Part shown: positions 843 through 23,000 of the stretch, piece by piece
How the letters are laid out: the number at the start of each line of letters is the position of its first letter
Numbering within the stretch: position 1 is the stretch's first letter
Translations under genes and position numbers: made by a program
DNA from: a virus
Length of the DNA: 28,210 bases
Virus record (IMG/VR): IMGVR_UViG_3300001460_000130
Span: 1 to 28,210 of that record
Reading direction: 5' to 3' (one strand)
The notes under the pieces: generated by a model
The model's database searches: none
The model's input: only the letters and a program-made list of their open reading frames with translations
What the model was told of the DNA's origin: nothing

Positions 843-2272
843 TAATAACTACCAAATGGATTTGACTCTGTAAAATCTATAATATTATCTGCTTGTGTTT
901 CTATTTCTTCATTAACATCATATGGGTTATCATAACTTTCTTCATCATAACTCTTAACAACATATCTAGCTGATGATATTGAACCAACTACAACTTCACC
1001 TGAACCAAACGTACCAGTATTTAGTGCAACTCTTAAATTGATTGGAGGATCTATCGTACTAACATCAAAGTCTCTTCTAAAATCTCTAACTACTGCCGTT
1101 ACACCTGTAGTTTGTCCTGTAATTGTTTCATTATAAAAGAATGTTCCAAAACCAACTGTAGATAGTCCTGTAATATTGATAGTTGGTGCTTCTGTATATC
1201 CAAAACCAGGTCTAGTTAGATTAATTGAGTTGACTTCGCCATCACTTGAAATGCTTGCGATACCAGTAGCAGTTATTCCAGAACCAGTAGGTCCACTAAT
1301 TATTACATCAGGTGGAGTTACATATCCCTTTCCTTTATTGTCAATTTGAATTTTAAAAATATTAGATTCTTCTGATGTATTTACAGAACATGTAGCAGCT
1401 GCTCCAGAACCTCCACCACCAGAAAATGTTATTGTTGGAGCAACCGCATATCCTATACCAGATTCTATAATTTCAATTCTTTCTATGGATTGTACGTTTG
1501 CGACACTAGTGGTAATTGCAACTGCAGTAGCTCTAATTCCAGATTCTGGTGCTGAAATTGTTACGACTGGTGCAGATGTATATCCAAAACCATCATTATT
1601 CAAAAATATTTCTGAAATTCCTCCCGTTGCGAGGATGGGTGTTGCTGTAGCAGTAATAGCAATTCCCGTAAGGGTTAAAGATGTAATATACCCTTCATCT
1701 TCTACTGTATTATCAACTTCTTCAATCGCAGTATCAATAAGTTCATTTTCATATTCATAAAGTTCACAACTCAATTCATAAACATAATTTGTTCCGAGTT
1801 GATAAAAAGGTTTTTCCGATTCAACTCTTTTAATTTCAAAAAGTCTTTCTCCGAGTGGGAAATAAATTAAATCTCCTTCCTTTGGTCTAGTAATTAAATC
1901 TGCAAAATCATACTCTGTAATTTTTCCTTCTCTGATCCCAGCAGAAATACCCTCTAAAAATGGAGCAATAAATTCTTCGTATTTTTCTCTAGATATAGTC
2001 AAACTTATTTCATTTTTTAATCTAAGACCAAACTTGGTCATTATGTCACTATCTGGAGCATATCCATCATAATTATTAATATATGCCTCCATCATAAAAA
2101 CATCATCAAATTTTGATGATTGAATTTCACGAATTATATTGTCAGTTTTAAAAATTTTTCTTGGTAGATAATATATGTCTACACCGTAAATTTTTAATTG
2201 TTCATTGATCAAATCCTGAATAAGAAACTGTTCATTTGTAGATCCTTGTAGAAAAAATGGATTTAAAGACAT
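842..2272 (-). CDS. 14: gp14, neck protein with an inserted repeat domain
   Basis: At 476 residues this is much longer than T4 gp14 (256 residues). In T4, gp14 forms the neck with gp13 at the portal vertex and makes the filled head competent to join the tail. Residues 1 to about 195 (MSLNPFFLQGSTNEQFLIQD at the start) and the last ~75 residues (ending in NPFGSY) look like the conserved gp14 body. Between them, residues ~218-370 hold four tandem repeats, each with G-x-G-Y-x-x-x-P followed by a V/I-rich strand and a G/S-rich turn. The key tyrosines are Y231, Y275, Y317 and Y359, so spacing is 42-44 residues. A G-x-x-x-x-G-Q-T-T-G-x-x-A module follows at ~380-395. The gene starts five bases after the gp13 stop. 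The repeats probably form a beta-rich decoration on the neck; this is inferred. Confidence 0.87.
   Translation of the reverse strand: MSLNPFFLQGSTNEQFLIQDLINEQLKIYGVDIYYLPRKIFKTDNIIREIQSSKFDDVFMMEAYINNYDGYAPDSDIMTKFGLRLKNEISLTISREKYEEFIAPFLEGISAGIREGKITEYDFADLITRPKEGDLIYFPLGERLFEIKRVESEKPFYQLGTNYVYELSCELYEYENELIDTAIEEVDNTVEDEGYITSLTLTGIAITATATPILATGGISEIFLNNDGFGYTSAPVVTISAPESGIRATAVAITTSVANVQSIERIEIIESGIGYAVAPTITFSGGGGSGAAATCSVNTSEESNIFKIQIDNKGKGYVTPPDVIISGPTGSGITATGIASISSDGEVNSINLTRPGFGYTEAPTINITGLSTVGFGTFFYNETITGQTTGVTAVVRDFRRDFDVSTIDPPINLRVALNTGTFGSGEVVVGSISSARYVVKSYDEESYDNPYDVNEEIETQADNIIDFTESNPFGSY
1163..1621 (-). repeat. Four tandem ~43-residue G-x-G-Y repeats inside gp14
   Basis: Four copies of a module with pattern hydrophobic strand, N/S-x-G-x-G-Y, three residues, P, V/I strand, G/S-rich turn and an A/T-rich strand occupy residues 218-370 of gp14. 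The tyrosines fall at 231, 275, 317 and 359. The DNA copies have diverged, so the repeat is visible at protein level only. Similar modules are present in three other proteins of this window. Confidence 0.85.
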
Positions 2273-2277
2273 AACTA

Positions 2278-4577: not shown

Positions 4578-4912
4578 TACCTAGTTACTCCCCCTCGTAG
4601 TAGTGCTGTGCCTTCGACAGCTTTATACTCTCTACCAGCATTTAAAATTTTTACATCATATACATATCTTCCTGGTTTCAAACTGACTGTTTGATTTGCA
4701 GTCATTGAAATTGAAATAATCCCCTGATCCGGACTAGTAATTGTAGATGCAAAAGATACTGATGTAGACGCTCCATAGTGTTTTCTCATTTGTGCCGTTG
4801 TGGAGGCATTATTGAGGTTTAAAGGTGCATTTGTTCTAGTGTCCTCCAATTGGAAGGATGTATCAAAATCAAATCCTTTTTCAATCACTATATTGGATAC
4901 ATAAACAGCCAT
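4577..4912 (-). CDS. Small beta-sandwich structural protein, BppU-N/Ig-like (111 residues)
   Basis: This 111-residue protein opens with MAVYVSNIVIEKGFDFDTSF and ends in a P-G-R-Y-V-Y-D-V-K-I...G...G-G-V-T-R pattern. That arrangement (early D-x-x-x-x-x-L, a central Q-M-R segment, then P-G-x-Y-x-Y-D-V and a closing V-T-R) resembles small beta-sandwich domains of phage baseplate and fibre proteins such as BppU N-terminal domains. I infer a virion adaptor or decoration protein; the exact role is unknown. It is the first gene after a perfect late promoter element, with 27 bases between the element and the ATG, and so probably leads the transcript for the fibre-like protein, gp13, gp14 and gp15. 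Its stop overlaps the next ATG by one base. The leader is AT-rich with no strong Shine-Dalgarno sequence. Confidence 0.7.
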   Translation of the reverse strand: MAVYVSNIVIEKGFDFDTSFQLEDTRTNAPLNLNNASTTAQMRKHYGASTSVSFASTITSPDQGIISISMTANQTVSLKPGRYVYDVKILNAGREYKAVEGTALLRGGVTR

Positions 4913-4933
4913 TATTATTGATGCTAATATACC

Positions 4934-4947
4934 TTTAGATATTTATA
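4934..4947 (-). promoter_or_regulatory. T4-type late promoter upstream of the 111-residue gene
   Basis: The minus strand reads TATAAATATCTAAA, whose first eight bases (4947-4940) are the exact T4 late -10 element TATAAATA recognised by the gp55 sigma factor with gp33 and the gp45 clamp. It lies in the 51-base gap between the 66- and 111-residue genes, the largest gap in the window. Transcription would start about ten bases before the coding sequence region at roughly 4930-4933. The same 14 bases occur before gp8. Confidence 0.82.
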
Positions 4948-4963
4948 TCATTTCACTAGGCAG

Positions 4964-5164
4964 TCATTTATTTAGAAATTGTTTTAGTAAGTCTTTAATT
5001 TCTTCAATGTCGTTTTTAATATTATCCAACTCTTTTCTTTGAAATTTTTCTGATTCAATTTTCTTTAATCTTTGATTATACCCAATTGTATCATAATTTA
5101 TAATTGCTCCAGTATCATCCCTATAAAGATGGGGATGGTCTTTAACTTTTGTTAATTTTGTCAT
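4964..5164 (-). CDS. Small conserved-type protein with C-terminal coiled coil (66 residues)
   Basis: The 66-residue product has a compact N-terminal part (K-V-K-D-H-P-H-L-Y-R-D, then G-A-I-I-N-Y-D) and a C-terminal amphipathic helix from about residue 30. In the helix, L, I and F residues recur every three or four positions among many K and E residues, which predicts a coiled coil. Small proteins with a P-H-L-Y-R-D start are, from memory, common in marine T4-like phages, but no function is established that I know of. The ATG overlaps the stop of the 2439-residue gene by four bases (ATGA), so translation is probably coupled. It may be an oligomerising assembly factor or minor virion component; this is inference. 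It ends just before the late promoter of the next transcript. Confidence 0.75.
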   Translation of the reverse strand: MTKLTKVKDHPHLYRDDTGAIINYDTIGYNQRLKKIESEKFQRKELDNIKNDIEEIKDLLKQFLNK

Positions 5165-8100
5165 TTCACTGCTAAAGTTCTTAGATCTTTAATTATTGGA
5201 GCATTTGCCTGATCCGTTGATGACATAACAATCTTAATAGCATATCCACTAAAATCTTCTAGATCATTTGCAGTAAATTCATACTCTAAATATTGATCTT
5301 TTTGACTTGGGGGAACTTTGGCATCAGATCTTCCGTCATTCAACTTAGGATTGACAATTTTTAAAACACCTTGAGATGTTAATTCCAAGTTATCAAATCC
5401 TGGGAATAATTCAAATGTTTGTTCTACTTCTGCAGAATCTTCTCTGATTAGACTATAAAGAACTCTTATATCTGCTACTTTTGGTCTATATGCTGACAAT
5501 AAAACCTTTAAGGAAGATGCTGGTTGCGCGAGATTTACTGGATTTGTAACGTAAATTACTTCATGAGGGTCATTTGATAATGAATTTACTCTAGAATCTG
5601 TAGCATAATTCGTTATTGGACTATTAATATTGTCTAAGATGAATTCAACAGTAGATGTATCTGTGAATACTATTGGAGAAAGATTTTTATCCGTTGTACT
5701 AAGTGTTAATGTAGAATTAAATGATCTCTTTCCAGATATATTATTGAATTGTGATTGATTTAATTCATTAACTCTAGAGCAAACCATACGAACAGAAGTT
5801 AAATCATTCTGTCTATTTGGTATTACTTCTTGAATAGTATTTTCAAGAGTGAATGAAACTTCATTTCCATCGATACTAGTTCCTGATGTAGTTCTTATAT
5901 TAGAAGTTACAGAAGTTTGTCTTCCTGGAGAAATAATATCAAATCTAGGATTGATTCTATTGAACATGATATTTTCTGATGCTTTGATATCATCTCCACC
6001 ACCAATCAATAATGTTGAGAACGATACTTGTGGCAGTGTTCCGGCACTAGTTGATCTATCATTTCCTATCGATTTTCCTTCTATACTGGATGTTGCTCCT
6101 CTATCAACTTCAATATAGTAAGAACCACTTTGAATTTCAGTATCAGAAATATCATAAACTACATTATTAATTCTTCTTAATGAGATTCCATTAAACTCAT
6201 ACTTCATTACTGGATCATTAATCGCATGATCTTCTGCAATTCCTTCCACTGCCCTTGAATTGATAGTTAATTGATTGTTTACTGCTGCTTGATATGCAAT
6301 AACTTCATCTCCAATTTTAATATATCCAACATTGTTAGAGTTAACAGGTTGTCCTTCAAAAGTAGTAAATACTGATGAATCATCAACTGAAATAGTTGCA
6401 TTAGATGAAACTGTAGCACTAAGATCTCCTTTTAATACTGTAGGTGCTGTATCAGAAATAATATCATCTAACAATACCTTGTTGTTATTTGCATACATTC
6501 CATGATTGAAGTGTTGAACTTGTAAATAATTTCCAGAATTAATTCCTCCGTCTTCAGTTGAGGTTAAAACATCAGATCCAGAATTTGCGGTGCTCGAAGC
6601 ACTAGTATAATACAATAGATTGCCAGTTGGAATATCACCCTGAACGTTGCTTAGATACAAAGTATCCGTGTTCCCACTAGCAGTAATAGTAAGGATTGCA
6701 TTTCTTCCAGTTTGACTAGAAGTATTGGTAAGTGAAACAATATCACCTGTACTATATCCTGTTCCTCTATTATTAACAGTCGCAGCAGTAACGCTACTGC
6801 CGGTACCAACAGAATTTATATTTACAGTTAGTCCACTACCTTGTCCCGAAATGTTAACAGTAGAAACATTAGTACGAACTGTATAATTTGCTCCTCCATT
6901 AACTATATTAACATTAGTAGCACTACTTCCAGTAGAAACAATAGTTCCAAAACTATTTCCTACACCAGCAATTTTTCTGCCTGCAGTTAAAATTCCTATT
7001 GTTGCAGCACTATTGGTTGTTGTAATGCCAAGTGTTACATTTTTTGGTAATGCTGTTAATGCATTCTGATTAAGTGTGGGAATGTATCCATTACTAGAAT
7101 CAAGAGGTGGATTCGAGAAATGTGCAATACCTGTGTTTGCAGTGAATTTTGCCTTATAAAGTTTAAACTTAAGGTCTGATTCTTGAGCAGGAGTCCATGT
7201 TGATCCATTTTGAGATTTGAAAAGACTTCCAAGAGCAAATTGTTTGCTATATCTTATAGATTCTGTAGCAGGAAGGTCCTTGGTTTCAATGGTTGTTTCT
7301 CCCATTTTTGCTGTCCAAACCTCATATTGATCAGAGTTTGGAGCAAGCAGAACTATTGCATATTCCTGTCCGGGTGGGAGATAAATTGGAAAATCAAAGA
7401 CAACTGTAGTTGCAGTTTTTCCATCATTTGAAGTTGCTATTTGATCGGGAGTTAATGTTTTTGGTTCACCTACAATATCTAATGTTGGTATTCCTAATTG
7501 AACAGTTCTTATTTCAACAGTAAGTGGTTGACCTCCACTTGGTTTTGATGCGAAGAATAAATCTACCTTAGTTACAAATACTCCATTATCATCATCAGTA
7601 TCACCAAACCCAGTTGGAGCATCAATATCTCTACCAACAACAAAACTTTGTGCTAGTGGATCTACTCTACGTGCCCTGACGTTTCTTCTGGTTGTAATCG
7701 TAGTTATAGTAGAAGTTATATTAGCAACATTTGTTGTTGTATTTGTAGTTATTTGTCTTGTCTTTCTTAGAGTTCCGTTTGCAGTATAGGTAGTATCTCC
7801 AGCAGAAATTAGTGTGCTACCAGGGAGTGGTTTTTGATTTGTAGAACTACTAGATAATCTATAAGTTTTTCTTCCGGTGAGGATTCTGGGATTTGGGGCG
7901 GGCCTTACATGAGGATTTTTTATAAAGAATGAACCAAATAAAGTTCCATTAACATCAGAAATAAGTTTTAAATCTTTTACATATGCAATAGCACCACTAG
8001 TCTGTCCAACTATTTTTGAACCTTTTTCAAGATATCCTTTAAATCTTCCCTGATCTTCGGCAGATAGTGAGTTTAAATCAATGTTTATCGTCCTAGAAGA

Positions 8101-11100
8101 TTGACTATATGCTGAAGATATATTTTCCGAATTTGCATATGGATTGATGCTATATGTGGTTGTTGGGGACTTAAACGGACCTGTTTTGTGATTTGATGCT
8201 GCTAATCTAAATTTTCCTATTCTTTTTCCTGCAGTAAATACTTTTATAGTCTCTCCTGCCCGGAAAGAATTGTTGGAAGATCCGGAATTTGTTAAAGTAC
8301 GAGAATTTGCAATCTCGACAAGTTTTGGAATGAAAGTTAAATTACTATGACTATCTAAGAATTGGTAATGTCTTGCAAGAGGTCTGAAAAGAGCTCCGAA
8401 GAAAGCAATGTTCCTAGAACGGACATATTTTTCTTCTCCTGAGGAAACAAGAATAGTTCTGACGTCAGTAACAGTATTACTGGTAGTATTAGTGTTAGTT
8501 GTAGTGTTAGTTGTTCTTCTTACAACTTCTGAATGTTCTACAAAATCATCAAAGGCATCTGGATTTAAATCTACAATTCTGTCTCCAACGGTATTTTGTC
8601 TCGATATATTGACTGTTCTATTAACTGCTCTATTGATTGTTCTTTCAACAACACGAGGTGGAAGACTGAGAGTTCTTACCCATACATCATGATCCGGAGA
8701 AAGTGTAATTATTCCATTGTATTCTACAACATGGAATGGATTAACATTCTCAACCGTCGTAGCAAAAGATTGATTTAACCAATCTACAGAATCATATTTT
8801 AAAGTAACTGCAGGACCAGTTTTTTGCACATTTGGATCCAATAAAGCATAATTTTGCGATAAATCTAGTTGACTTTCTGGTACTTCTACTGCAGGAACTA
8901 ATCTTTGCTGTAAAGAATCTCTAAATGCAAAAGATCTGAGTTCTCCATTTCTGACGTCAGAAGTTGTTAAATTTCTATTCGATAGATCTTTATTGTTAAA
9001 ATTATCTACAAATATTCCACTTTTGAATCTATCATTTCCACCAGCATCTTCAACTTTTAAAGTTTTTGTATTAAGTTCGAGTAAAGTTAACGATGTAACT
9101 CTCTCTAAATTATCAATTCTATCTTCAAGATGACCAATATCTCTCATAGTATATCTTCTATTGTCTATAGTAGATATAGTAACCTCATCAGTATCATATA
9201 GATAAGCAGGAATATTAATTTGTGCTATTTGCATTAAGTCATTATCTTCATTTGATGGTGGTTTTGGATCTGCAGCAGAAACTCCTTTTCTTACAATAAC
9301 ACTTCCAAACTTATCAAGATATACTCTATCAATTCTGGGAAGATAAAAATCATACCCGAGTAATGATCCCTCTCCAGGTTTTAATGTTAATTTTGGATCA
9401 CCAGCAGCAAAATTTCTTGAGGTAAAATCAAATGGAGATCTAGTTGTTGATGTATCAAAGGTTGGTACTCTAGGTCTGAAATCAAGAGTATCGGAAGCTC
9501 TGACATTTTTTGATCCTATGACAGGAATATCTTTGGAAAATCTTTCCGCATCATAACTGAGAACAGTAAAGACATCACCATTATCTGAAGTTGGAATTAT
9601 ATAGTGATCATATACAACTAAAAGTTTCTTTTCTGGAACTTGAGTTCCAACTCTGATCAATCTCGAATAATCATAGTATTCGTCTCTTTGACCTTTATCT
9701 AGAGTAAAATTATTCGTAATATTTTTATATTTTCCGAGAGTTATTGATTCTAATGTCGAAATTATATTAGACTCTTTGAATACTATATTTTCTCCTGGAT
9801 CAAATTTTTGATCATTCAGATAAACGATTCCAATATTATTTGACGGAATTGGTGGTGTTGCTGACGAAGAAGAATTTTGGACAATTCTTGCCAGAGCTCC
9901 ACTATCGGAACCAATAATATCTTCACCAATAATCGCATTAGTATCTACTTGAGATATTGAAGAGAATTTAAATAAATCTAAAACAGGATTTGCAGTATTT
10001 GTGGATTCATATACCGCAAGAACTTTAGATACATCAGGAACATTTAAAGATATTTTATCATCCTGAACTCGCAATCCATAATATTGATTATAGGTTAATC
10101 CATCATTAATTGAATCACTAGTTGCTGCACCAGACTGAACAAGTTGTGATAGATCTATAATATCTAAAGCACTTCTCGTAAATTCTTTAATCTTACTTTG
10201 AATGCCATTTTTTATAAGAGTTGCATTTACAACAACAGATCCATTATCTAATCCATTAATGGTTACAGTATTGCCTGATAAATTGAAAGAATCGGATGTA
10301 ATTGATCCAATTCCACCACCACTTGTATAATGAACAGAGTATCTTTCTTGGTCAAATGATTCATAAGATGCACTAGTAATTCCACTATTGCCTAAATCAA
10401 AAGTTAAACTATTTCCAGAAACAGTTAAACCAGTTATTTGTTTAGTTATTGCTAACTGAGAGTTGGAAAGATTTACTGAAGAAATATTAGAATCAGGAAG
10501 ATCTGCATAAAGAGATCCATTTTCATTATTTCTCAGTTCTGGAACTGCAAGTTCAATAATATAATTTCCATCTGGTTTAGCACTAATATAAACACCAGAT
10601 ACACTACCACCAGGGGAGTCGATTGTTATTGATGTCAGATTTCCATCTACTGCAGTAACTCTATTATAATTAGGAATACTATTTCCGGATGTTCCATACC
10701 TAATAATATCACCTACTTTGATGCCGGTAAAAAGATTACCTGCACTGGTAAAAACGTTGGAATTTAAATTTGCTTCAGCAATTCCTGCAATTTTTCTAGA
10801 ACTAAGAGCACTATCTGCTGTAAACGTTGTTGGGTATCCAGAGAAACTACTAGTATCTTGAAGCACGGATTTAATGTCTCTGATACCATAAACAATAAAA
10901 CTCTTTAATGTTAATGAAGCATCAACACCATTGACAAGTAATTGTTCATCAGCAACGAAAGTTCCTGAGGTTTGATAAACATTTAATGATGCTCCACTAC
11001 CAGCAGCGACTGCAAAACCTGTTGCACCACTACTCTTACCTTTAATAAATGATGTTGCTAGAACTTCTGTTCCTGATACGGATCTATTAAAAGTCAAATT

Positions 11101-12480
11101 TGTATAAGTTTGAATATCATAAAGATATAAATCCCATTGAGTTGCCGCACCAGAGTATGCTGCATCTGTTAAATTGAATGTATATACTTTTGCTTTTCCT
11201 ATAGTAGAACCACTATCCCCCTTTAACCGAGATTTTAATTCAATTTCTTCATGTTCTTTTGGAGCGCCAACAACATTATTAACTCTCAGAAGGTGTCCCA
11301 TCTCAAAGGGAACATTGATGCTTGATATATTTTCAGTATCTCTTGGTTTTTCGACATCAGAAGTTACGGCTGCATCAAGTTCAACATCATATCCAGATAC
11401 ATATGCTTTTCCAGGTGATACCTGAACACACATCAAATCATCAGATGGAGTATTTAATTCTTCTGTAACTTCATTTTCTAAAAATAAACCATCATTATCA
11501 ATTCTATCGTTCAAAGATTCTAGAACATTTACTCTAAATTCATCAACAGTATAATGCCCAGATTCATCAAAAGTTCTTTCTGCAATATAATCTCTAACAA
11601 TATTATATACTGTTTTATCGACTACTTTCTTTAATTTTCCATCATCAACTCTAAGAAGTTCTATAAAATCCGTATCATTGAAATCTGTTAAAGATTTTTT
11701 AACTAAAGTTAAACCAATTTTAAATCTATCTGCACCAGGTGCTGCGAAGTTTGTAAACCCTTTTGCGTTATCATATAAAGAACTATCATCTTTGGCATTT
11801 ACTACAGTTTCACTTACCTTTAATCCAACTCTATAAGATGAAACATTTGTATAATAATCTAATATCAAAGTTTCTTTAGAAACATTAACAAAATTGCCTC
11901 TTACAAAGTAAACTCCATTATCAATAGACGCAGCAGCACCAATAAATATTGCGTCTTGCTCCAAGACAGAGGAAAATACCGTTCCAGAATTAATAACAGT
12001 ATTTCCAAAGGTTATATTTTCGGATGCAGTTAAATTTTCTCCAGGTGTAAAAGTAGTTGATTCAGAATCAGTACCTGCATTGAAATATTTTACATAAATC
12101 GTTAAATTATCTACCTCATCACTATCTGTAGTCAATGCAAAGTTTTTAATTGTGGCACTTACACCAGATAATACACCTGTTATAGTTTTTCCAATGGCAT
12201 CTTTAATATAGACTGAAACATCTACCCCTAAATTGGTAGCATTTAATTTTACCGCACAATAGTCATTATCAAAGGTTATTCCTCCTGGAAGAACCATAGA
12301 ACCTTCTTTGAAAATATTACTCCCAAAAGATTCTACTTGATTTTGTAAGATGGACTGAAGAGTGGTTAATTCTCTAGCCTGAACTGGAAATCCTGGTTTA
12401 AATAGAACTTTATAAAAGTTTTTACTTTTATCAAAGTCATCATAATATGGGTTAATATTTAAGTCTGTTTTTTGTGCCAT
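5161..12480 (-). CDS. Giant virion structural protein with DUF4815-like N-terminus (2439 residues)
   Basis: The N-terminus has the pattern NPYYDDFDxSKNFxxVLFxPG then V-Q-A-R-E-L-T-x-L-Q-S-I-L-Q-N-Q, which I recognise as the DUF4815 family of phage tail/baseplate proteins. Around residue 1607 comes D-P-L-A-Q-S-F, followed by V-D-L-F-F-A-S-K and, at ~1692-1727, P-I-Y-L-P-P-G-Q-E-Y and V-W-T-A-K-M-G. This block is common in structural proteins of marine T4-like phages. Two Asn/Thr-rich linkers lie at ~1319-1338 and ~1574-1597. Two G-x-G-Y-type repeats are at Y1866 and Y1909, and an I-x-x-E-x-I-x-Y module is at ~2016-2092. There is no signal peptide or membrane segment. It follows gp8 by six bases and occupies the place of T4 gp9-gp11, so a peripheral baseplate or fibre-anchoring role is likely but unproven. 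The leader contains seven A residues and only a weak ribosome binding site. Confidence 0.8.
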   Translation of the reverse strand: MAQKTDLNINPYYDDFDKSKNFYKVLFKPGFPVQARELTTLQSILQNQVESFGSNIFKEGSMVLPGGITFDNDYCAVKLNATNLGVDVSVYIKDAIGKTITGVLSGVSATIKNFALTTDSDEVDNLTIYVKYFNAGTDSESTTFTPGENLTASENITFGNTVINSGTVFSSVLEQDAIFIGAAASIDNGVYFVRGNFVNVSKETLILDYYTNVSSYRVGLKVSETVVNAKDDSSLYDNAKGFTNFAAPGADRFKIGLTLVKKSLTDFNDTDFIELLRVDDGKLKKVVDKTVYNIVRDYIAERTFDESGHYTVDEFRVNVLESLNDRIDNDGLFLENEVTEELNTPSDDLMCVQVSPGKAYVSGYDVELDAAVTSDVEKPRDTENISSINVPFEMGHLLRVNNVVGAPKEHEEIELKSRLKGDSGSTIGKAKVYTFNLTDAAYSGAATQWDLYLYDIQTYTNLTFNRSVSGTEVLATSFIKGKSSGATGFAVAAGSGASLNVYQTSGTFVADEQLLVNGVDASLTLKSFIVYGIRDIKSVLQDTSSFSGYPTTFTADSALSSRKIAGIAEANLNSNVFTSAGNLFTGIKVGDIIRYGTSGNSIPNYNRVTAVDGNLTSITIDSPGGSVSGVYISAKPDGNYIIELAVPELRNNENGSLYADLPDSNISSVNLSNSQLAITKQITGLTVSGNSLTFDLGNSGITSASYESFDQERYSVHYTSGGGIGSITSDSFNLSGNTVTINGLDNGSVVVNATLIKNGIQSKIKEFTRSALDIIDLSQLVQSGAATSDSINDGLTYNQYYGLRVQDDKISLNVPDVSKVLAVYESTNTANPVLDLFKFSSISQVDTNAIIGEDIIGSDSGALARIVQNSSSSATPPIPSNNIGIVYLNDQKFDPGENIVFKESNIISTLESITLGKYKNITNNFTLDKGQRDEYYDYSRLIRVGTQVPEKKLLVVYDHYIIPTSDNGDVFTVLSYDAERFSKDIPVIGSKNVRASDTLDFRPRVPTFDTSTTRSPFDFTSRNFAAGDPKLTLKPGEGSLLGYDFYLPRIDRVYLDKFGSVIVRKGVSAADPKPPSNEDNDLMQIAQINIPAYLYDTDEVTISTIDNRRYTMRDIGHLEDRIDNLERVTSLTLLELNTKTLKVEDAGGNDRFKSGIFVDNFNNKDLSNRNLTTSDVRNGELRSFAFRDSLQQRLVPAVEVPESQLDLSQNYALLDPNVQKTGPAVTLKYDSVDWLNQSFATTVENVNPFHVVEYNGIITLSPDHDVWVRTLSLPPRVVERTINRAVNRTVNISRQNTVGDRIVDLNPDAFDDFVEHSEVVRRTTNTTTNTNTTSNTVTDVRTILVSSGEEKYVRSRNIAFFGALFRPLARHYQFLDSHSNLTFIPKLVEIANSRTLTNSGSSNNSFRAGETIKVFTAGKRIGKFRLAASNHKTGPFKSPTTTYSINPYANSENISSAYSQSSRTINIDLNSLSAEDQGRFKGYLEKGSKIVGQTSGAIAYVKDLKLISDVNGTLFGSFFIKNPHVRPAPNPRILTGRKTYRLSSSSTNQKPLPGSTLISAGDTTYTANGTLRKTRQITTNTTTNVANITSTITTITTRRNVRARRVDPLAQSFVVGRDIDAPTGFGDTDDDNGVFVTKVDLFFASKPSGGQPLTVEIRTVQLGIPTLDIVGEPKTLTPDQIATSNDGKTATTVVFDFPIYLPPGQEYAIVLLAPNSDQYEVWTAKMGETTIETKDLPATESIRYSKQFALGSLFKSQNGSTWTPAQESDLKFKLYKAKFTANTGIAHFSNPPLDSSNGYIPTLNQNALTALPKNVTLGITTTNSAATIGILTAGRKIAGVGNSFGTIVSTGSSATNVNIVNGGANYTVRTNVSTVNISGQGSGLTVNINSVGTGSSVTAATVNNRGTGYSTGDIVSLTNTSSQTGRNAILTITASGNTDTLYLSNVQGDIPTGNLLYYTSASSTANSGSDVLTSTEDGGINSGNYLQVQHFNHGMYANNNKVLLDDIISDTAPTVLKGDLSATVSSNATISVDDSSVFTTFEGQPVNSNNVGYIKIGDEVIAYQAAVNNQLTINSRAVEGIAEDHAINDPVMKYEFNGISLRRINNVVYDISDTEIQSGSYYIEVDRGATSSIEGKSIGNDRSTSAGTLPQVSFSTLLIGGGDDIKASENIMFNRINPRFDIISPGRQTSVTSNIRTTSGTSIDGNEVSFTLENTIQEVIPNRQNDLTSVRMVCSRVNELNQSQFNNISGKRSFNSTLTLSTTDKNLSPIVFTDTSTVEFILDNINSPITNYATDSRVNSLSNDPHEVIYVTNPVNLAQPASSLKVLLSAYRPKVADIRVLYSLIREDSAEVEQTFELFPGFDNLELTSQGVLKIVNPKLNDGRSDAKVPPSQKDQYLEYEFTANDLEDFSGYAIKIVMSSTDQANAPIIKDLRTLAVK
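6745..6900 (-). repeat. Two G-x-G-Y repeats in the 2439-residue protein
   Basis: Residues ~1861-1912 hold two copies of the module, N-G-G-A-N-Y (Y1866) and N-R-G-T-G-Y (Y1909), 43 residues apart. They have the same V/I strand and G/S turn pattern as the repeats in gp14 and gp8. Confidence 0.75.
8467..8525 (-). repeat. Low-complexity Asn/Thr codon tract in the 2439-residue gene
   Basis: An imperfect repeat of the plus-strand unit ttagt/tagtgt encodes T-T-N-T-T-T-N-T-N-T-T-S-N-T at residues ~1319-1338. It is probably a flexible linker between domains. A similar T/N/I-rich tract lies at about 7690-7760. Confidence 0.7.
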
Positions 12481-12486
12481 CTTTTT

Positions 12487-14007
12487 TTAGAATTCCAGAA
12501 TAATTTTAACGTCTTCTTTTTGTCTAGAGTCTCTTTGAACTTCGGGTCGATTATCAATGTAGATTATATCCCCTGTCTTCTTATTTATCTCAGGACTTGC
12601 AAGTCCTTTTGAGAAAGTAACTCCTAAATTAATTTGTTTAGAGTTAATTGTTATGACACTACCATTAAAACTTGTGTCTATAGTTCCGGCAGGACTTAAT
12701 CCTATAACAGCAGTACTAAATCCCACAATAGCAGAAGTCAAATTATTGTCTATTTGGTCTACTTTATTACCAAAACTCAGGGATCTATCTTGATAATACT
12801 TTACAATATTAGTTTCTTTATCGTAAGAAGCCACATATCCTTTTGCAACTGTTGTAACATTGTTAGTGGTTACAGTTTGTGTTAAAATGTCTCCCTTATT
12901 AAGTGTTACTTCACTAGTTAACTTAATGGCAAAAAGTGAAGAAAATTGATTATCTGTAAAAGTTGTTCCTCCTCCAAAGGTTTCGGGATTTTTTATGATA
13001 CCGACCTGAGCAAATTTTGTATCTGTAGGAAAATCTTTAGTTGAATCATCAAATCTAGCGTATAATAATACTTTATCAGTTCCTAACTCTTGATAAATGT
13101 TATATCCATGACCTTTAGATGGTGGAATTATTGGAATCAATTTTGCATTTTGTCCCGATTGACTCCTCAAATTAATAGCTCCGTAAGTATATCCCCGACC
13201 TCCTTGAGTTACTGTTACTTCAGTTATTATACTATTAGTTACTTCAATATTTACTTTTCCTCCAGTTCCATCACCTATAATATCTGCGGGTCCCTGTGTA
13301 TATCCAGTTCCACCATTTTCAATATATACCTTTCGAATTTGATTGTTATTATTATCAGAATTTCCACCATCTCTGATTATTTGAATATCAGAATCTGTGG
13401 TCGTTAACCAATTATTTGGAACAACAAAAAATTCTGTAGAGTCAAATTTAATAACATCTGCTGGTGATACTTTAAACAAATACTGCCATACATACCCATC
13501 ACTTAGTTTAGCTGGTTGTGCATCAGTATGTGTTGGTTTAACTGTTGACAGAGGAACAGTGACATTATCATTAGGTCCTGTAGGACCAGAAGTTCCATTA
13601 TCAAGACAGACATAAATTTTAAACTCATCAGTAATCACATAATATTCTGCACCATACAATGTTAGAGACTTATTAACAGGAGATTGATTTCCTTGTTTAT
13701 AATCATGCCTATACATATCATATTGGTTATCTGAAATCCAATCAATTCTTCTTACAACTCTTCTAGCGTTTTCTGTGGTAATTTTTTTGCCAAATAAACT
13801 AGTATCTCTATAATGATATAAGTATTGTAAATTATCGACCGGATTATTATTTGTGCTTGTATCCCAGTTAACATCTCTACCAAATCCAGGATCTGGTGAT
13901 TTTGGATTTGATAATCCCAAAAAAGCATAATAAGAATTATTACTGATAGACTCTACAAAGGAACCAGCATTCAATATTCTAAATTGGTCTGTTACGAATG
14001 CAGCCAT
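12487..14007 (-). CDS. 8: gp8, baseplate wedge protein
   Basis: The 506-residue product is larger than T4 gp8 (334 residues). In T4, a gp8 dimer joins the baseplate wedge on gp7 and gp10. The N-terminus (F-V-T-D-Q-F-R-I-L-N-A), the Y-x-F-L-G segment at ~28, the conserved D-G-Y-V-W-Q-Y-L-F-K-V at ~170-180 and the P-P-S-K-G-H-G-Y segment at ~295-302 followed by E-L-G are gp8 landmarks in marine T4-like phages. Two G-x-G-Y repeats (Y236 and Y273) lie between the last two landmarks. The C-terminus has an N-K-K-T-G-D-I-I-Y-I-D-N-R-P segment and a K-I-I-L-E-F end, typical of the family. The gene has its own late promoter 17 bases before the ATG, so it probably heads a transcript that also covers the 2439- and 66-residue genes. 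Confidence 0.87.
   Translation of the reverse strand: MAAFVTDQFRILNAGSFVESISNNSYYAFLGLSNPKSPDPGFGRDVNWDTSTNNNPVDNLQYLYHYRDTSLFGKKITTENARRVVRRIDWISDNQYDMYRHDYKQGNQSPVNKSLTLYGAEYYVITDEFKIYVCLDNGTSGPTGPNDNVTVPLSTVKPTHTDAQPAKLSDGYVWQYLFKVSPADVIKFDSTEFFVVPNNWLTTTDSDIQIIRDGGNSDNNNNQIRKVYIENGGTGYTQGPADIIGDGTGGKVNIEVTNSIITEVTVTQGGRGYTYGAINLRSQSGQNAKLIPIIPPSKGHGYNIYQELGTDKVLLYARFDDSTKDFPTDTKFAQVGIIKNPETFGGGTTFTDNQFSSLFAIKLTSEVTLNKGDILTQTVTTNNVTTVAKGYVASYDKETNIVKYYQDRSLSFGNKVDQIDNNLTSAIVGFSTAVIGLSPAGTIDTSFNGSVITINSKQINLGVTFSKGLASPEINKKTGDIIYIDNRPEVQRDSRQKEDVKIILEF
13130..13340 (-). repeat. Two G-x-G-Y repeats inside gp8
   Basis: Residues ~224-292 contain N-G-G-T-G-Y (Y236) and Q-G-G-R-G-Y (Y273), 37 residues apart. 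Each is followed by a short strand and a G-rich turn. They precede the conserved P-P-S-K-G-H-G-Y segment directly. Confidence 0.78.
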
Positions 14008-14018
14008 ATTGATAGTTT

Positions 14019-14032: not shown

Positions 14033-14040
14033 CGACAAAT

Positions 14041-17000
14041 TTAAGATTCTCTTTTCGGAAGAGCACCGGTTTTTCTAATTCCAACACCTTTTCTTTGAAT
14101 AGTAGGATATGTTGATAGACCAGAAACGACATTTCCAGTTACAGCAATTGATACTGGATTTGAAGATCTTGTTCCACTAGATAGTCTTCCCCAAGAATAT
14201 CTTCCAACAATATTATTTGGATTACTTCCAGTGGTAGCAATTCCAACAGTATTTGTATTGGAATGTACATTGCAGGTTATAACTCCCACATATTTAGGTC
14301 CTACTAACAGTTTGGATGACCAGTCACCAACATAATAAATGTTATCTAAACACGTAGTTCCAATACCAACCGTTTCAGAATTTAAACCAGTAGTATTAAT
14401 TGAGATCACACCATTGCCAACATTAGTTTCATTAATATAAATGGGATATCCTGTAGATAATCCACTGAGTGTTGCACTTTCATCAATAATTGTAAACACA
14501 ATAGCTAATGGATTTGATGCAGTTCCTGCGGATGTTGTGATTCCGGTAATAATTCCAGAAGAACCGTTTATAGCACCAAATGATGTGATTTTTTCAACTA
14601 ATCCAGTCGTAAATCCTGTTGTTGCAATTCCGTTTACAATTAAAGCATCACATGGAGTTGAAAGATCACTATAACTACCATTATCGGTTTCAAAACTGAA
14701 CAGTTTTGAATTTTCAATAAACACTTCAGTATCAGTTGTTGATACATCCTTAATAATTCTTGCGGTTGGAAAAACTAGAGGTTCTATTGAATCTCTAGTT
14801 TTGGGTACAAACTCACCATTAATTTTCTTACCTATTTTTTGTTTAGTCCATGAAACTGGTTTTTGATTTTGTTCGTCAACTCCAATACCAGCATAACGGT
14901 TAGTTTCAATTCTATCAGACTCTGTTAAATTATAAACTGTTCTATTTTCCTGTGTTACTGTGTTTGAAATAGTGTTATTACTATTAACTTGAACAATGTC
15001 ACCAGGTTCTATAGTTGGTACGACATTATCATTTTGTGAGGCATCCGTGCCTTTAAGACCTTTATAGTAATAAATTTCAACTTCATCTTCAGGTAAAGGT
15101 GCTTTTGTAAATACAAAAGAGGTTCCACCTTTAAATATGTAATTAGTTACAGGTTTTTGGAGAACACCATTTATAAAGATTACCAATACATTGTTCATGT
15201 TATCTTTGATTGGTTCATTATTATCAGCTTCGAAACTTAGAAGTTCTCCATTATAATTAAGTGGGAATCTAGTTCTGCTTCCATCTTGAAGTTCTTTGGT
15301 ACTATCAATATAATCAAGTTCTCCAAATTCCCAAGCAGCAAAATTATCAAAATACGTTTCAAGCACGGTAAGTTCAAAATTAGATAATGGTGAGGATAAT
15401 CTAGAATCCGTAACTAAACCAACCGGTTTAAGTACATCACCTTTCTGGAAAGAATATCCCGACCTTGAAATTTTAAACTCTGTTATTTCAAAATGAGTAG
15501 ATCCTATTCCTACAGTTGTAGAAGATCCACCAACTTTAACATCCAACAATAATCCAATTCCAGTATCTGTTGTTGCTCCAACTCCAAGTCTAGAAACTCC
15601 AGTAATAGGGAGATTTTTATATGATGGATCGTTTACAAATACTGCTGGATTTACATAATTGGTTCCAGCAGAACCAACATTAAAGGATAGAGTTCCACCA
15701 ATACCTATAGAATCTACTGAAACTACTGCTCCTGTACCGGCACCACCACCACTTCCTACACCAATTTGAATGGTATTTAATGTCGTTGCTGCAATTGCAA
15801 CTGTAGGAACATTATGAATTGGGTCTCCTCCAGACTGTCCTCTTCTTAATTTTGTCTTAGATACAGACCTTGGATATGAATGATTTGTTGCATGACCATC
15901 CTTAGAACAAGTAAATACCAATCCATCAGTTTTGATACCAATTGTATTTGATGTTGTTAAACCGTGATTGAGAATAGTTAGGATCAAATCACCAGTTCTA
16001 GAATTGTAAATAGCATCTGTTGCAGTATGAGTGCCCCCAGTATTATCCGTAATTGAATTTACTCCAGCACTTACAAATTTGTGATCATACTCTATGTCTA
16101 CTACACTTACTCCAATGGAAACCAATCCATTATATCCAGATCCTAGATTATCAGTGGTTCCTAAACCAACAGATACGAAAGAACCTCCAGCACCAACAAC
16201 AGCAGTGACAGAAGCACCTACAAGTGGTGCAAATCCAAGTCCAGGAGTAGATCCAAGTGAAACTATAATTCCACCTCTAGGAGTTTCATTTTGATTAACA
16301 TCCGTATCTGAGGTTACAAATTCGACAGGATCTACTTTTGGTTTTGTAATTCCAGAAAATTCTACGGTTGTTATTCCTACAGAAGTATCTTCATTAATTT
16401 CATAATTGAATATAGCAGGATTGTTTGCAGTTTTTGGTGATTGATAAATGCTATTAACAAAGATAAGACCACTTCCACCTATGGTTCCAATACCAGTAGT
16501 ATTTGCTCCACCAACAGTTAGTGTAAATGTTCTTCCTATTCCCGTAAATTGATCGGATATATTATCATAAACTTTATTAGTATCTCGTAAAATGCCACTA
16601 GAATCAACAACAGATTTCAGGAATGTTCTTCCAGTGAATGATGATGTCTCAAAATCTAAGTTAAATTTTGTTTTATCTATTTGAGGATTTCCTCTAGGTG
16701 GTTCTGCAAAATGAATTTCATCATCTACAATGTTAAATGCTCCTTTGTAAATTCTTGCTTCAGTACTATCTGAATGAGATGTTGCAGAAGATCCAACAAA
16801 TCCTCTATTAACTTCAACAAGATTTATACTTCCTCTGTTAGTAATTGGACCAATATTTGTGGTTCCAAGTCCAACATTAACTATACCCATAAACTCATTA
16901 TCAACATATAATATATCTCTTATATTGATTGTCGAAATTCCACTCAAAGAAACAAAAGTGGTGCTAACTCCTAATGTACCTGCAATATTTCCTGATAAAC

Positions 17001-20000
17001 TGTGTGCTACTTCAGTGTATGCGACTGGATATTGAACCAGTTCATCAACTGTAATAATAGATTTGGAATTTTTCTTCTTCATAGTAAATCTATGAGCATT
17101 TCCTTCTCCTAAAGAAGTAAATGTTGTTCCAATTCCACTTATAGCATTTGAAGTTGATGTTGCGACTTTAAAAGTATCTTCAGTGAGTTTAATAGCATAT
17201 ACTGAACTTGGTAAAAGATCAGTAGCACTTGTCATCATGGCACTAGTTCCAACACCAACAATTGTGGAGTTTGGAGTATAAACTAACTCTTCACCAGTGT
17301 AGAAGAAGTGATCTTTGATAGTGAATAGTCCAGTGGTTGCTGCCAAGGATACTGAATTGGGATTAAACTGTTTTGAGAAGATTGGTGTATTGTTTGTAGT
17401 CAGTTTAAAGTTTGTTCTATTAATTCTTTCTCCATTAATTGAGTTATAGAATTTTTCATCAATGCTCTCAATAACAGATCCATATCTTAAATCATCATAA
17501 TCATTAAGAGTATCTGTTCCAGAATATAATGATTTGCTGAAAATTTCAATATTAGTTTCTTGACTCTGATCATCTGGATAGAATTTTAATATTAAATTAC
17601 TGCCAGACACTTCTCCACCAAATGTCCCAATACCAGATGCGGTATCAAGAATACTAGTACTACCTACAGAAAGGAAAGGTAATTGTTGAGTATAAACATC
17701 AATTCCATCAAATAACATCATAACTTGATGAAGTGCCTTAGTAGAACCTGCACTTACTTGTACTACAGATTTTGATGCATTAAATAATGTCTTATCTAGA
17801 GTATGAATTGCTGTGGATGCTAAAGAAACTGTAGATTGGAAATTGGATTGGTATATTGCACTTCTCTCCTGCCCATCTAATTGATCAGAAGACTTAAATC
17901 TAAATGCTCCTATTCCAGATGTTGTTGTTCCAAATCCAACAATATTAGTTCTTATTTTAATCGGATTAGAAGAAGTATTTTCATGTATCAATGATAAAAC
18001 TCCACCTCCTAGATCAGTGCAGGTAAATAAACCTATCGGATCTCCTGTTGAAGAACTTAAATCATTATCAATATAATATTCAGACATATATGTATTTGTT
18101 CCATCATGTGCGATATACAATCTCACATAATTCATATCATCAGTACTGGTATTTCTTACCTGTGCATTAACATAAAGAGATTCAAAATTGCTAGAATTTA
18201 GTGAAATAATCGTAGTTGTTCCTATACCAACCGAATTAGTCTCTATATTTACAGATCCAATTAAATCTACAAATCCAATAGATGTTGTTCCTACTCCAGT
18301 GACATTCGAATTAAAAGTTTGTTTAATTAGTTTCAGATCATAATTTGTATTGAGTGGATCAACCGGATTGAATCTTAAGAAAGTTTCATCAAATTCATTT
18401 ACAAATAATTCAAATGTTCCATATGGAGTATTTGAATTCTGTAAAGATTCATTTTCAACAATAACAACCTCTTTTTGATCACTCAATATAGTTACATCGG
18501 TTAATTGTACTTCACTACCATTTTCGCTAACAACTCTGAACAAATAATTATGATATGATATATCGTCAACTTCTTGTATTGATAAAAATTCAGTATTTTC
18601 ATCTTCGGAATTTGAAAACTGATTGCTAATATTATCAATATTCAATACATTGAGATTTTTTAAATCTGTATAATTAGTTAATTTTTTATTTTGGAATCTT
18701 AAGAACTTTGATTTTGCATCAACAACTTCACTATCAATAACATTATCAAAATTATTAATGGTGTCTACTCTCTTTTGATCAATTGCATCATAAACAATGA
18801 TAAATCCATCACTAGATTTTTCTAATCCTGCATTAACAGAACTTGATACTTGAGTATCTGCAAAGTTCTTCAATCCACTGGTATGAACTAAGTTTTCTAC
18901 AGGAGATTGTTGATCTTTATATGTTGCTGAACTTTTTATTGAATATGACAAATTCTGATAATAATCATTATCTGCAGTAACCTGAAAATCTTCACTTAAT
19001 TTTCCAGTTTCAGTATCCCATCCAATATTTCGTAAATTGGAATAATTTACATTAAAGATTGCTTTATTGTCAGTTAATGTTTCTATTGTGGCAATATTGC
19101 CAGACTCAGTTCCTCTAATAATTTCACCGATAGATAATTCATACAATCCAGAAACTTTTAATTTATTCCCTTCACTTTCTACAACTGTCAAATCTATATT
19201 TTGATTATTTGAGGATAAAGTTTCTCCAACTAAGAATGTAGATTGTTTCTGAGTTAGTTTGAATGATGGATAATCATTTTTATTAATTAAAACTCCACTA
19301 AAATCCTGAACAGTTTTTGCAATACCAGTGTTTGTAGTTAATCCGGATATATCAAATGTTACTTTATTATTGATAGACGAAGCATTATCATAGTTACTTA
19401 CCTTAAACAGTTTAAATCCATAATCTTCTGAATTAAATCCATCACCACTATTACCAAGTTTTTGAATTCCTTCAACATATACAAGATCACCAACTCCAAA
19501 TGGTTCAACTGTAAAAAATCCAGTTCTTGGTGTTGTTATGGAGCATGTAAATATACCAGTATTTGAAGATGCTACATCAACAACAGAGATTCCATTACTA
19601 TTATTAGTGGTAAAGATTTCTACTCCACCATCAGATAATCCTTTTGGAGAAACTTCAATATCTACAGATGAAATTGAAGCTCCTGCTATATTTGCATTCA
19701 ATAAACCAGAATTAACAACATTTCTTGTGGTGGAATCGACAATAGTTAATATCGGAGTTTCAGTATATCCATTTCCACTATTTAAAATTGTCAGAGTGTC
19801 TATAGTATTAGAATTTTTTAATACTATATTTGGAGACACACTAGCTTCGGGTCTTAGTGTTTTATCTGAAGAATAAGTAAATCTGTTATTTAAAATTCTT
19901 TTTTCTTTTATTGAACCAATTAAATTTGATTCTATATCTACAATTAAATCGGAACCAGAAACTGAGTTTGTAGATTTTAAAATTGGTGTCTTCTTATATT

Positions 20001-23000
20001 CGGATCCAAAAGATAAGACATTTAATGATTTAACAGACCCAGTTGTAGAAATTGATGTTGTAGAATATTCCAGAGTATCACACTCCGTAGAAATATACGA
20101 AGATCTCTCAGGTTTTTTATCAATATTTAAATTGAAAGTTGTTGTTCCTACACCACTTATGCTATAAGTATTATTATAAAGACTGACATTATATCTAATA
20201 CTGGAATTTTCCTGAACATCAGTATCTGGATTTAATATTACTCCATTTTTTTCCAGATTGTAATATAATTCCTCTGAAATTGTAGAATCATATTCTAAAG
20301 TTAGTGTTGCAGTGGTTCCAAGTCCGACAGTACCTACTCCAGATAAACTAAATGAAGTTGTAGATCCAGTAGATACAAATTCATTTTTGAATTGAGAATC
20401 TGTATAAAGTTTTAAACTATAATTGACCAAGCTTGTATCAGAAAGATCGAATACTAAGTTATTATTCTTTATGATATTCAATCTTGGATTAATCAATGCC
20501 AGATTTTGATTGGACCCTCCTGTTGAAGCAAAACCTACGATGGATGGGGGAATTTGTTGAGAATTAAAGTAAGTTTCACACAACTTAATTTTATTTTTAT
20601 TGACTTTATATACAAAGTATTCAATTCCACTTAAAGGACCATTTTCATAAATGACTTTATCTCCAGTCTTTAATTCATGATTGGCAATGGTAATTTCATT
20701 GGTTGTTGAATTGATTCCAGTAGAATTAAATCCAATTGGATTTATGACAATATTGTTAATCTCGGTATTATAGATGACACGAACTGATGTAGAAGTTCCA
20801 ATACCAACAGAAAGATTTGGTTCTATATCTAAAGTAATACTATCACCATTTTGAAGTCCATGCGATGTAGAAACGGAAACGGTTGCTACATTCTTTTCAA
20901 TATCACCAGTTATTTGTGTAAAGTTGGATCTCAGTGAATATTCATCATTATCTGTACCATTAGTATGGAAGAATACCTCTTCACTATTAATCTCAGTCTT
21001 TAATCCAATAAGATTTGGATTTTTGTTGATAACAAAAAGATTTGATGGAATATTACTTTGAGTTTGACCATCAGTAGATATTGATAATGTTGTTCCTTTA
21101 GCAGTATAAATGACTGATTGGTTTGTTTTGAATGGGTGGTTTTCAATATGAAGACCCTTGGTTGGAATATCTCTTATTACAGAAATATCTCCAAAGATAA
21201 AGGACGTTGAATATCCAACACCAGATATTGTTCCTACTCCAACAGATTCATGGGGATTAAAGAAAGCAGTATTGTTTACTGCAGATTCAAACTTATCTAC
21301 AGATTTTGAAATAGTAAATGAATCTGGTAAGAAGGATACTGAAGTTCCCTCACTATGGGATACTCCCGATAATCCTCTCTTAACTCTTAAAATATTTTCA
21401 TTTCGATATATATCAAGAATTTTTAATGTTTCTGTTCCAACTGAAATACTACTACCAATTGAAACTTCATCTGGAACTGGTGCAACATATATTTCTGTTG
21501 TAAATCCAGCAGATGCTACACTTGTTACTGTAGAAAGACATCTTCCACTTGTATAAGATGGAACAGTAATTTGATGTATTCCGTTTAAAGATGTTAAATT
21601 AGTAGAAAATCCTGATATTGCAATAAAATCTAAATTTGAAAAATTATGTTTTGGTAATATTGAAATTTTTATTTTTTGAGGAGATTCCCATGTAAATAGA
21701 GAATTTAAATTGGTAGTGGTATTTGTAACAATAGTTGTAATATCTCTACCATTTATAGATTTTACCTCAACATTTAATCCACTTCCAAAAGTGTCAGTTT
21801 CATCAAATATTAATTTATCTCCAACTTTAAAATTATTACCTCCATTCTGAATCTTTACAGATTCTACTGCACCAGAATTCACAGATAAAATTTCTATCTT
21901 TTGATCTAAAACATCACTAGTTTCGTTGATAAAATCATAATCTGCATTTTTTTCTGCCGATTTGTATGGTAAAGTATTTCTTAATAGATTGGATCCATTA
22001 AAATCAAATGATTGTTCTAGATTAGAATCGGAAATTAACTTTGATCTATACTTATTACCTATGAAATATGGAAATTCGTCTATTGTTGCATGATAAGCAT
22101 ATACACCATTTGGATATTCGTTATTTTTTTCATACCTACCATTATACTCATCTAAATCACCACTTCCATCAAATTTGTAATCTTCAATGAAGAACCCTGA
22201 AGGAAATTCACTCGGTCTATCTACCACATTTGATATATCGAGAACATATCCAGATTCTAATGTTTTTAAATTGCCAGGAGATCCAGGAACCGAATATCCG
22301 GTTGGACCATAAATTGGATTTCCATCATATGCCCATCCAATAATTCCTGATAAAGATCCATCTTCTAAGAAAGAATTTCTCAATCTTTCAAAATATTTTA
22401 ATGTTGTATATTGAAGTTTATCCTTACCAATTGATAAAAGTTCTCCTGTGGAAGATCTTTCATTACCATCAACTGTCAATGTTCTTATTTGAGGATCAAT
22501 AATAGCATCTTTTCCTGAAGAAATAACTTGAATCTTTGTATTTGTAGAAGAATATCCAATACCAGTAGTAACAACTTTAACTTCTGATATTTTTCCTGAA
22601 GCATCGACTATTGCTCTTAATTCTGCTCCAGTTCCAGAACCAGTAACAACTAAATCCGGAACAGAATAGTACTCTATTCCTTCATAACTGATAGTAACAC
22701 TAGAAATTCTACCTCCAACAACAATTGGGGTTAATTGAGCAAGTTTACCGTTCTCTACAGTTACTGTTGGTTTGTTTTCATAATTCAAAACTGTTGATCC
22801 ATAACCAGTTCCAGATTCATAAACATAGGCATCAACAATACTTCCCTTTACTACTGGAGTAACTACCAAATCTTCAAGTGTTTGTGTGGTTGATCCAATT
22901 CCAGCAGTAACATAGTTGATTGAAACAGAAATATCAGGATATTTAAAGTATTGTTCTCCAGATCCAGTACTATTAAATTTTTCATAATTTTCCTGTTCAT

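Follow-up and report, generated by a model that had tools for sequence, protein, structure and literature searches.

Repeat-carrying proteins of the window

The subject of this analysis is a short protein repeat, centred on a G-x-G-Y turn and here called the GxGY repeat, which recurs in four structural proteins encoded by a stretch of viral DNA of 28,210 nucleotides (IMG/VR record IMGVR_UViG_3300001460_000130, positions 1 to 28,210), referred to below as the window. The IMG/VR contig has a length of 28,763 bases; all genes of the window lie on its minus strand, and their order along transcription is gp6, a 4000-residue giant protein, gp8, a 2439-residue protein, small fibre-related genes, gp13, gp14 and gp15. 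Close kin of the window are T4-like cyanophages, and the closest isolates for gp14 and gp8 include S-SKS1, S-SRM01 and P-SSM2. The repeat carriers, together with gp6, are located as follows.

26045-27997, minus strand: gp6
14041-26043, minus strand: 4000-residue giant protein (orf4000) with a YHYH domain, carrying 8-11 repeats (phrog_2885 baseplate wedge; Pfam YHYH 3.5e-19)
12487-14007, minus strand: gp8 baseplate wedge protein, 506 residues, carrying two repeats (Pfam Phage-Gp8 1.3e-8; phrog_438 3.5e-143)
5161-12480, minus strand: 2439-residue VrlC/DUF4815 protein, carrying two weak repeats (Pfam DUF4815 1.8e-55; phrog_358)
842-2272, minus strand: gp14 neck protein (head closure Hc2), 476 residues, carrying four repeats (Pfam T4_neck-protein 1.2e-28; phrog_460 6e-123)

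The core of gp14 resembles T4 gp14 in both a PDB sequence match and a fold search match. The giant protein occupies the gp7 slot, between gp6 and gp8, and the corresponding slot is annotated gp7 in S-SM2 and P-SSM2. In S-SKS1 the gp7-slot region (22900-35283) consists of several shorter frames, as opposed to the single long frame of the window, S-SM2 and P-SSM2; this fragmentation could be real splitting or a sequencing error.

Copies of the repeat were sought with a profile trained on gp14 only, specifically on 114 repeat sequences drawn from 94 gp14 homologues and the gp14 of the window. This profile replaced an earlier one built from four seed sequences, with which gp8 was not clearly separated from shuffled sequences. 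Decoys for the gp14-only profile were 100 local shuffles of all other window proteins (maximum 6.4 bits) and reversed sequences (maximum 5.2 bits). Profile-profile comparison (hhalign) and iterated profiles, the training set of which takes in the window proteins themselves, provided additional scores. Bit scores below refer to the gp14-only profile unless an iterated profile is named.

1499-1624, minus strand: gp14 repeat 1, residues 217-258; 55.6 bits
1367-1492, minus strand: gp14 repeat 2, residues 261-302; 48.5 bits
1241-1366, minus strand: gp14 repeat 3, residues 303-344; 47.8 bits
1115-1240, minus strand: gp14 repeat 4, residues 345-386; 45.4 bits
13234-13344, minus strand: gp8 repeat 1, residues 222-258; 8.1 bits; also hhalign
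13114-13233, minus strand: gp8 repeat 2, residues 259-298; 7.4 bits; also hhalign
6805-6927, minus strand: putative repeat 1 of the 2439-residue protein, residues 1852-1892; hhalign 19.3; iterated profile 8-12 bits
6679-6798, minus strand: putative repeat 2 of the 2439-residue protein, residues 1895-1934; hhalign 18.5; iterated profile 8-13 bits
23596-23826, minus strand: degenerate pair of the giant protein, residues 740-776 and 777-816; second, hhalign 25.7; first, motif and weak score
23158-23268, minus strand: giant protein repeat, residues 926-962; 8.4 bits; hhalign 24.6
22486-22845, minus strand: three consecutive giant protein repeats, residues 1067-1108, 1111-1147 and 1150-1186; middle one (1113), 7.2 bits and hhalign 32.3; other two, motif and weak scores
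21754-21873, minus strand: giant protein repeat, residues 1391-1430, with the 'VGD' variant as in T4 gp18; iterated profiles 17-21 bits; hhalign 21.8
19954-20040, minus strand: giant protein repeat, residues 2002-2030; hhalign 27.6
19570-19809, minus strand: giant protein repeat pair, residues 2079-2115 and 2122-2158; 18.4 bits; hhalign 37.7 and 26.2
15574-15693, minus strand: giant protein repeat, residues 3451-3490; hhalign 25.2

Both gp8 copies exceed every decoy of either kind, and profile-profile comparison of gp8 with gp14 gives a probability of 94% (E 1e-7) over 58 columns spanning two units. In the reverse test, a profile built from gp8 only matches the gp14 repeats, a VrlC copy and the tail sheath of Stenotrophomonas phage IME-SM1. 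The gp14-only profile gives the putative pair of the 2439-residue protein non-significant scores (0.7 and 1.7 bits). Profile-profile comparison ranks the two copies first in that protein (reversed maximum 13.7), and its relative in S-N03 has clear copies at nearly the same position that reach 37 bits with the gp14-only profile. Support for this pair comes only through relatives. With respect to the giant protein, the gp14-only profile finds residues 2081 (18.4 bits), 928 (8.4 bits) and 1113 (7.2 bits), and profile-profile comparison identifies eight places (2081, 1113, 2004, 2124, 779, 3453, 928 and 1393), all with scores of 21.8 or more, where reversed alignments peak at 12.7; three further places (740, 1067 and 1150) owe their assignment to the motif. 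This protein also has a candidate for another repeat family, H/P-x-F-x-x-G-D/E-x-I-x-Y ... Y-F-V-x-K-I-x-x-x-x-F-x-L, at about eight places (residues 611, 846, 964, 1636, 1728, 1789, 2912 and 3360), some of which directly adjoin GxGY repeats.

The repeat region of gp14 is matched by PHROGs models for head closure, baseplate wedge, tail fibre and hub proteins alike. An NCBIfam search gave no useful match. Chance or composition as the cause of the similarity was rejected by the reversed and shuffled controls. An earlier note on the window, made from its letters alone, had described four copies in gp14, two each in gp8 and the 2439-residue protein and about ten in the giant protein, at a spacing of 37-44 residues. 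The spacing and the gp14 count (45-56 bits for each copy) are borne out, as is the gp8 pair, and 'about ten' is a fair figure for the giant protein; the pair in the 2439-residue protein holds in so far as its profile-profile ranking and the S-N03 copies are concerned, but not by the gp14-only profile. The span of 1163-22830 given there widens to approximately 1115-23826, with two more giant-protein places past its end and gp14 copy 4 running past its start.

Insertion, gain and loss

The T4-like core of gp14 ends at about residue 191, and a second conserved stretch begins at about residue 435 (C-terminus, 435-474). The residues between the core (1-191) and this conserved C-terminus, repeats included, are missing or different in repeat-less gp14. 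In T4, the gp14 region after the core is an arm for gp15 binding (PMC12270204). Of 249 intact gp14 homologues, 247 carry zero (84), two (81) or four (82) copies. A comparison of gp14 lengths with and without repeats, as proposed in the earlier note, yields a simple relation over these homologues, in which length equals 284 residues plus 50 per repeat. The outlying proteins of S-8S56 and S-SSM7 contain seven and five clear repeats, respectively, with weaker candidates that leave the totals uncertain.

The gp14 of the cultured phage P-SSM4 has 308 residues and no repeats, compared with 386-390 residues in two-repeat relatives, and in a tree of the gp14 core it is nested inside the two-repeat clade. 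Specifically, it lacks about 80 residues that hold exactly both repeats, and the flanks align. P-SSM4 gp14 represents a natural deletion of the pair in a cultured phage. Presence, absence and number of repeats differ between orthologues, and the module has therefore been gained and lost.

The gp14 repeats also vary more than the core (48-70% versus 89% identity to the window). The gp8 repeats vary no more than the rest of that protein, and both of them are kept, each with its Gly and Tyr invariant, in all gp8 homologues aligned. Recent copying between genes of one genome was looked for as well: among 210 units, not one is closest to a unit from a different protein of its own phage, and therefore no recent transfer between genes was found. 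The spread of the module appears to be old, or its traces have been erased. Movement of the module between genes, as suggested in the earlier note, is accordingly not shown as a recent event.

Repeat architecture and the pair as a unit

Each repeat follows the same plan: a long strand, the G-x-G-Y turn, a short strand, a G-x-G-A turn and a second long strand. AlphaFold2 models agree with three strands per repeat in both gp14 (219-229, 236-239 and 249-257) and gp8 (226-231, 239-245 and 248-257). In the gp14 model, the predicted local distance difference test score (pLDDT) is mostly 85-92 over repeats 1-3, while the overall predicted template modelling score (pTM) is 0.41; for gp8 the pTM is 0.58, and the mean pLDDT is 66.6 in one model of five and 52-55 in the rest.

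Arrays of at least two repeats were counted in reference phages and 34 bacterial loci, with three near-duplicate Bartonella loci excluded. Even-numbered arrays make up 60 of the 70, as compared with 69% expected from a geometric length distribution (P 0.001). The preponderance of even arrays and the joint loss of both repeats in P-SSM4 favour the pair over the single repeat as the folding unit, and the single repeat was rejected in that role on the same grounds. Two three-strand repeats would be expected to close into a six-stranded barrel.

Cradle-loop barrels (the GD-box group, with RIFT, EF-Tu and F1-ATPase N-terminal domains) are two-fold symmetric six-stranded barrels of two similar halves. 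Fold matches to EF-Tu, F1-ATPase, FliI and PilZ were weak and non-significant, and a 'VGD' motif is found in some units. Fold searches run with gp14 and gp8 at full length found mainly matches to the cores (T4 gp14 and T4 gp8) and not to the module.

Occurrence in other phages and in bacteria

The profile search was extended to other phages, as the earlier note had proposed. Scores with the gp14-only profile reach 42 bits in a fibre protein, 37 in a VrlC protein, 28 in gp7-slot proteins, 13 in a gp13 and 40 in a tail sheath. The last of these is the sheath of Stenotrophomonas phage IME-SM1 (L091:32935-34986), in which a clear GxGY pair at residues 242-316 scores 40 and 32 bits and recurs in every one of the 17 matching records of Stenotrophomonas phages. 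When one consensus-like pair served as a tblastn query, only Stenotrophomonas phage sheaths were matched, because single-sequence searches miss diverged copies. A Bartonella phage-like locus also encodes a phage-type sheath with clear GxGY copies.

In Pseudomonas guariconensis (L350:2626-3393), a GxGY pair is inserted at about residues 128-206 of a lambda-like tail tube protein (Phage_TTP_11). A non-phage setting is provided by a Rickettsiales metagenome-assembled genome (L352:2050-4287), where a Tad-like pilus-type protein has six GxGY repeats in a row. Other carriers in bacterial genomes are a T4-like gp8, a DUF2589 protein in Kordia and a right-handed beta-helix protein, and the module there is often a single pair. 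In view of these bacterial copies, the module is not a marine-phage invention. Taken together, these occurrences uphold the view of the earlier note that the repeat is an add-on element common to unrelated virion proteins, being an insertion in gp14 with 0, 2, 4 or more copies and occurring also in sheaths, tail tube, gp13, fibres and non-phage bacterial proteins.

The gp7-slot protein of Pelagibacter phage HTVC008M (L096:33435-36482) contains three GxGY repeats and bears the RefSeq name 'head closure Hc2', although it was not recovered as a homologue of the gp14 core. This name probably stems from the repeats it has in common with gp14. Literature searches found no description of the GxGY repeat. 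Passages of one study report that unrelated phage proteins of different functional classes, baseplate included, share domains (PMC10684548); those passages make no mention of the GxGY module, of sharing among neck, baseplate and sheath, or of a link to gp18 domain I.

Likely kinship with domain I of the T4 tail sheath protein

A two-repeat profile was built from 15 diverse two-repeat segments, none of them from T4-type sheaths, and searched against 177,635 distinct PDB sequences. The top match was T4 gp18 (E 0.023), with both repeats aligned to residues 102-171, within domain I. The corresponding Pfam family, Gp18_dom_I (PF22639), was also the family most often matched by the segments themselves (2 of 15, best E 0.0011). 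The window copies do not reach its 27-bit cut-off (T4 gp18 itself scores 126 bits), and the gp14, gp8, 2439-residue and 4000-residue proteins gave no match to PF22639 up to E 1.

In a held-out test, all Straboviridae and all sheaths were kept out of training, and 2000 shuffles served as decoys. At domain I, the resulting profile scored 17.9 bits for Aes508, 13.9 for RB49, 10.1 for JS98 and 7.7 for T4, with a shuffle maximum of 11.0. The gp18 proteins of Aes508 and RB49 exceed the decoys, whereas T4 gp18 by itself does not, and no other T4 open reading frame scores above 2.4 bits. Profile-profile comparison of gp14 repeats 3-4 with gp18 domain I gives 28.5, as opposed to 11.6 for the reversed control. 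Moreover, the clear module copies in the IME-SM1 and Bartonella sheaths lie between two parts of domain III, which is the slot of domains I and II in T4. This position was assigned by Pfam domain order; a first alignment had put the IME-SM1 repeats away from T4 domain I.

Domain I of T4 gp18 is a six-stranded barrel that protrudes and is without gp18-gp18 contacts; its partners are the baseplate and the long tail fibres in their retracted state, and retraction is blocked by three mutations (PMC3004832). The residue letters given there match the sequence only with the initial Met uncounted. G106 is then the first Gly of a GxxY motif, such that the site of the G106S retraction mutation is the Gly that is invariant across 210 aligned units. 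S175 and A178 fall in a stretch rich in Gly and Ala, where the second repeat should have its last strand, although this assignment is weak.

Overall, these observations make common ancestry of the GxGY module with T4 gp18 98-188 likely, with moderate strength. Like the module, T4 domain I (PF22639, residues 98-188) holds two GxxY units, both of them aligned, and is inserted into another domain. It is an outward-facing six-stranded barrel (PMC3004832), which the module would resemble in shape and position; the sheath copies of IME-SM1 and Bartonella occupy the same sheath region. The T4 domain differs in that it has just one pair, the second unit of which is degenerate, and an additional helix, whereas the window has pairs in tandem, in neck and baseplate proteins, that score below the PF22639 model.

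Two other systems invite comparison. Like the module, the immunoglobulin-like (Ig-like) add-on domains of tailed phages are surface add-ons that are common to proteins of capsid, tail and baseplate and are present in some relatives but absent from others, and for those of sheath proteins adhesion or virion stability has been suggested (PMC9230969). They belong to another sequence family and size, in contrast to the two 37-43-residue repeats that form one unit here; no Ig-family match above the Pfam cut-off was obtained among window proteins, module segments and other carriers, and there was one sub-threshold Big_3_3 match (E 0.0047). The BACON tandem repeats of crAss-like phages are likewise tandem beta domains in a phage protein and a possible hotspot of change (PMC6949934), but they are a separate family, and the BACON model did not turn up in Pfam scans of the same sets of sequences.

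Proposed role and alternatives

The common ancestry of the repeats, their insertion into an older core, their gain and loss, the preference for even numbers and the likely kinship with T4 domain I are computed results. The explanation that we favour, and consider reasonably probable, is that the repeats are half-domains of a mobile surface barrel akin to gp18 domain I that docks fibres or virion parts. Two GxGY repeats of three strands each would fold jointly into one six-stranded beta-barrel, which would be a discrete, dispensable add-on in loops or inter-domain junctions of virion proteins without common ancestry, and a distant relative of T4 gp18 domain I. Its job would most likely be that of the T4 domain, namely to project outwards and present a surface on which retracted fibres or adjoining virion parts can dock. 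In the gp14 ring, two barrels per subunit would be arranged around the neck, and the barrels of gp8, the gp7-slot protein and the VrlC protein would sit on the baseplate. We infer the closed barrel, its outward position in this phage and the docking role, and by homology an exposed knob where fibres or neighbouring virion parts dock would be the likeliest function.

Several points weigh against this explanation. The T4 link consists of several weak agreeing signals, none of which alone is significant at 0.001 in a database search. The AlphaFold2 models, from which the predicted strands come, are modest (gp14 pTM 0.41; gp8 mean pLDDT 66.6 for the best of five). The fold search placed no gp18 among the 50 matches listed, and the barrels it did find (EF-Tu, F1-ATPase, FliI and PilZ) were non-significant. 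The counted arrays, as homologues, are not fully independent; 10 of the 70 look odd-numbered, and there are 43 runs of one, with many single-looking copies in giant proteins. Unrecognised partner repeats would produce both the odd and the single counts.

A possible but rather unlikely alternative is that the barrels act as structural filler or cement, either packing on neighbours and stabilising the particle or serving as neutral, ligand-free spacers that enlarge proteins. Dispensability in P-SSM4, even-numbered arrays, conservation of fold-determining residues only and the great diversity of host proteins, non-virion ones included, all suit such a role. Nonetheless, T4 domain I has no sheath-sheath contacts yet binds fibres and baseplate (PMC3004832), and neutral spacing sits poorly with gp8, given the retention of both repeats and their invariant residues.

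Glycan or cell-surface binding, in which the outer barrels would stick weakly to host envelope sugars and aid adsorption as proposed for phage Ig-like add-ons, we regard as unlikely. The module does occur in tail fibres, sheath and baseplate and in surface-type bacterial proteins (Tad-like, right-handed beta-helix), and the variability of the gp14 repeats relative to the core fits an exposed element with variable partners. The gp8 repeats do not share that variability, however; the neck ring is a poor site for receptor binding, the pair is naturally lost in cultured P-SSM4, and, apart from the structural Gly, Tyr and Pro, no aromatic or polar patch is conserved in the repeats.

Convergence, with short Gly/Thr/Ala-rich beta repeats arising independently in each protein, is very improbable and largely refuted: low-complexity composition, short units and the weak scores of the 2439-residue protein would allow it, whereas the copies agree column by column over the whole unit, gp8 and gp14 do so across two units, and scores are far lower for reversed or locally shuffled sequences of equal composition. 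Across 210 units the conserved positions are hydrophobic strand residues and the Gly, Tyr, Pro and Ala of the turns. Metal binding, as in RTX-like or other calcium-binding repeats and as the earlier note had entertained, is very improbable: Gly-rich turns with an occasional Asp would suit it, but no column exceeds 20% Asp plus Glu, and His and Cys are at about 0%. With no acidic residue, His or Cys conserved at any position, catalysis is disfavoured as well.

Implications

Returning to the docking barrel akin to gp18 domain I, a broader and more tentative proposal is that the two-repeat barrel may be a general connector of tailed-phage virions, present wherever a fibre or accessory is parked (neck ring, sheath, tail tube, baseplate wedge and giant wedge proteins), with the T4 knob as one specialised descendant and the GxGY and GxGA turn loops as the common binding face; we hold this to be possible but on balance improbable.

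Beyond what the earlier note had seen, the analysis identifies the pair as the functional unit and T4 sheath domain I as a likely relative of known structure and role. Even numbering and the P-SSM4 deletion together single out the pair as what is gained or lost, and mark where to cut. Automatic misannotation, such as that of the HTVC008M gp7-slot protein, is also explained. An unnamed repeat of many phage and bacterial proteins is in this way tied to a domain with a solved structure and mutant phenotypes, and its role becomes testable.

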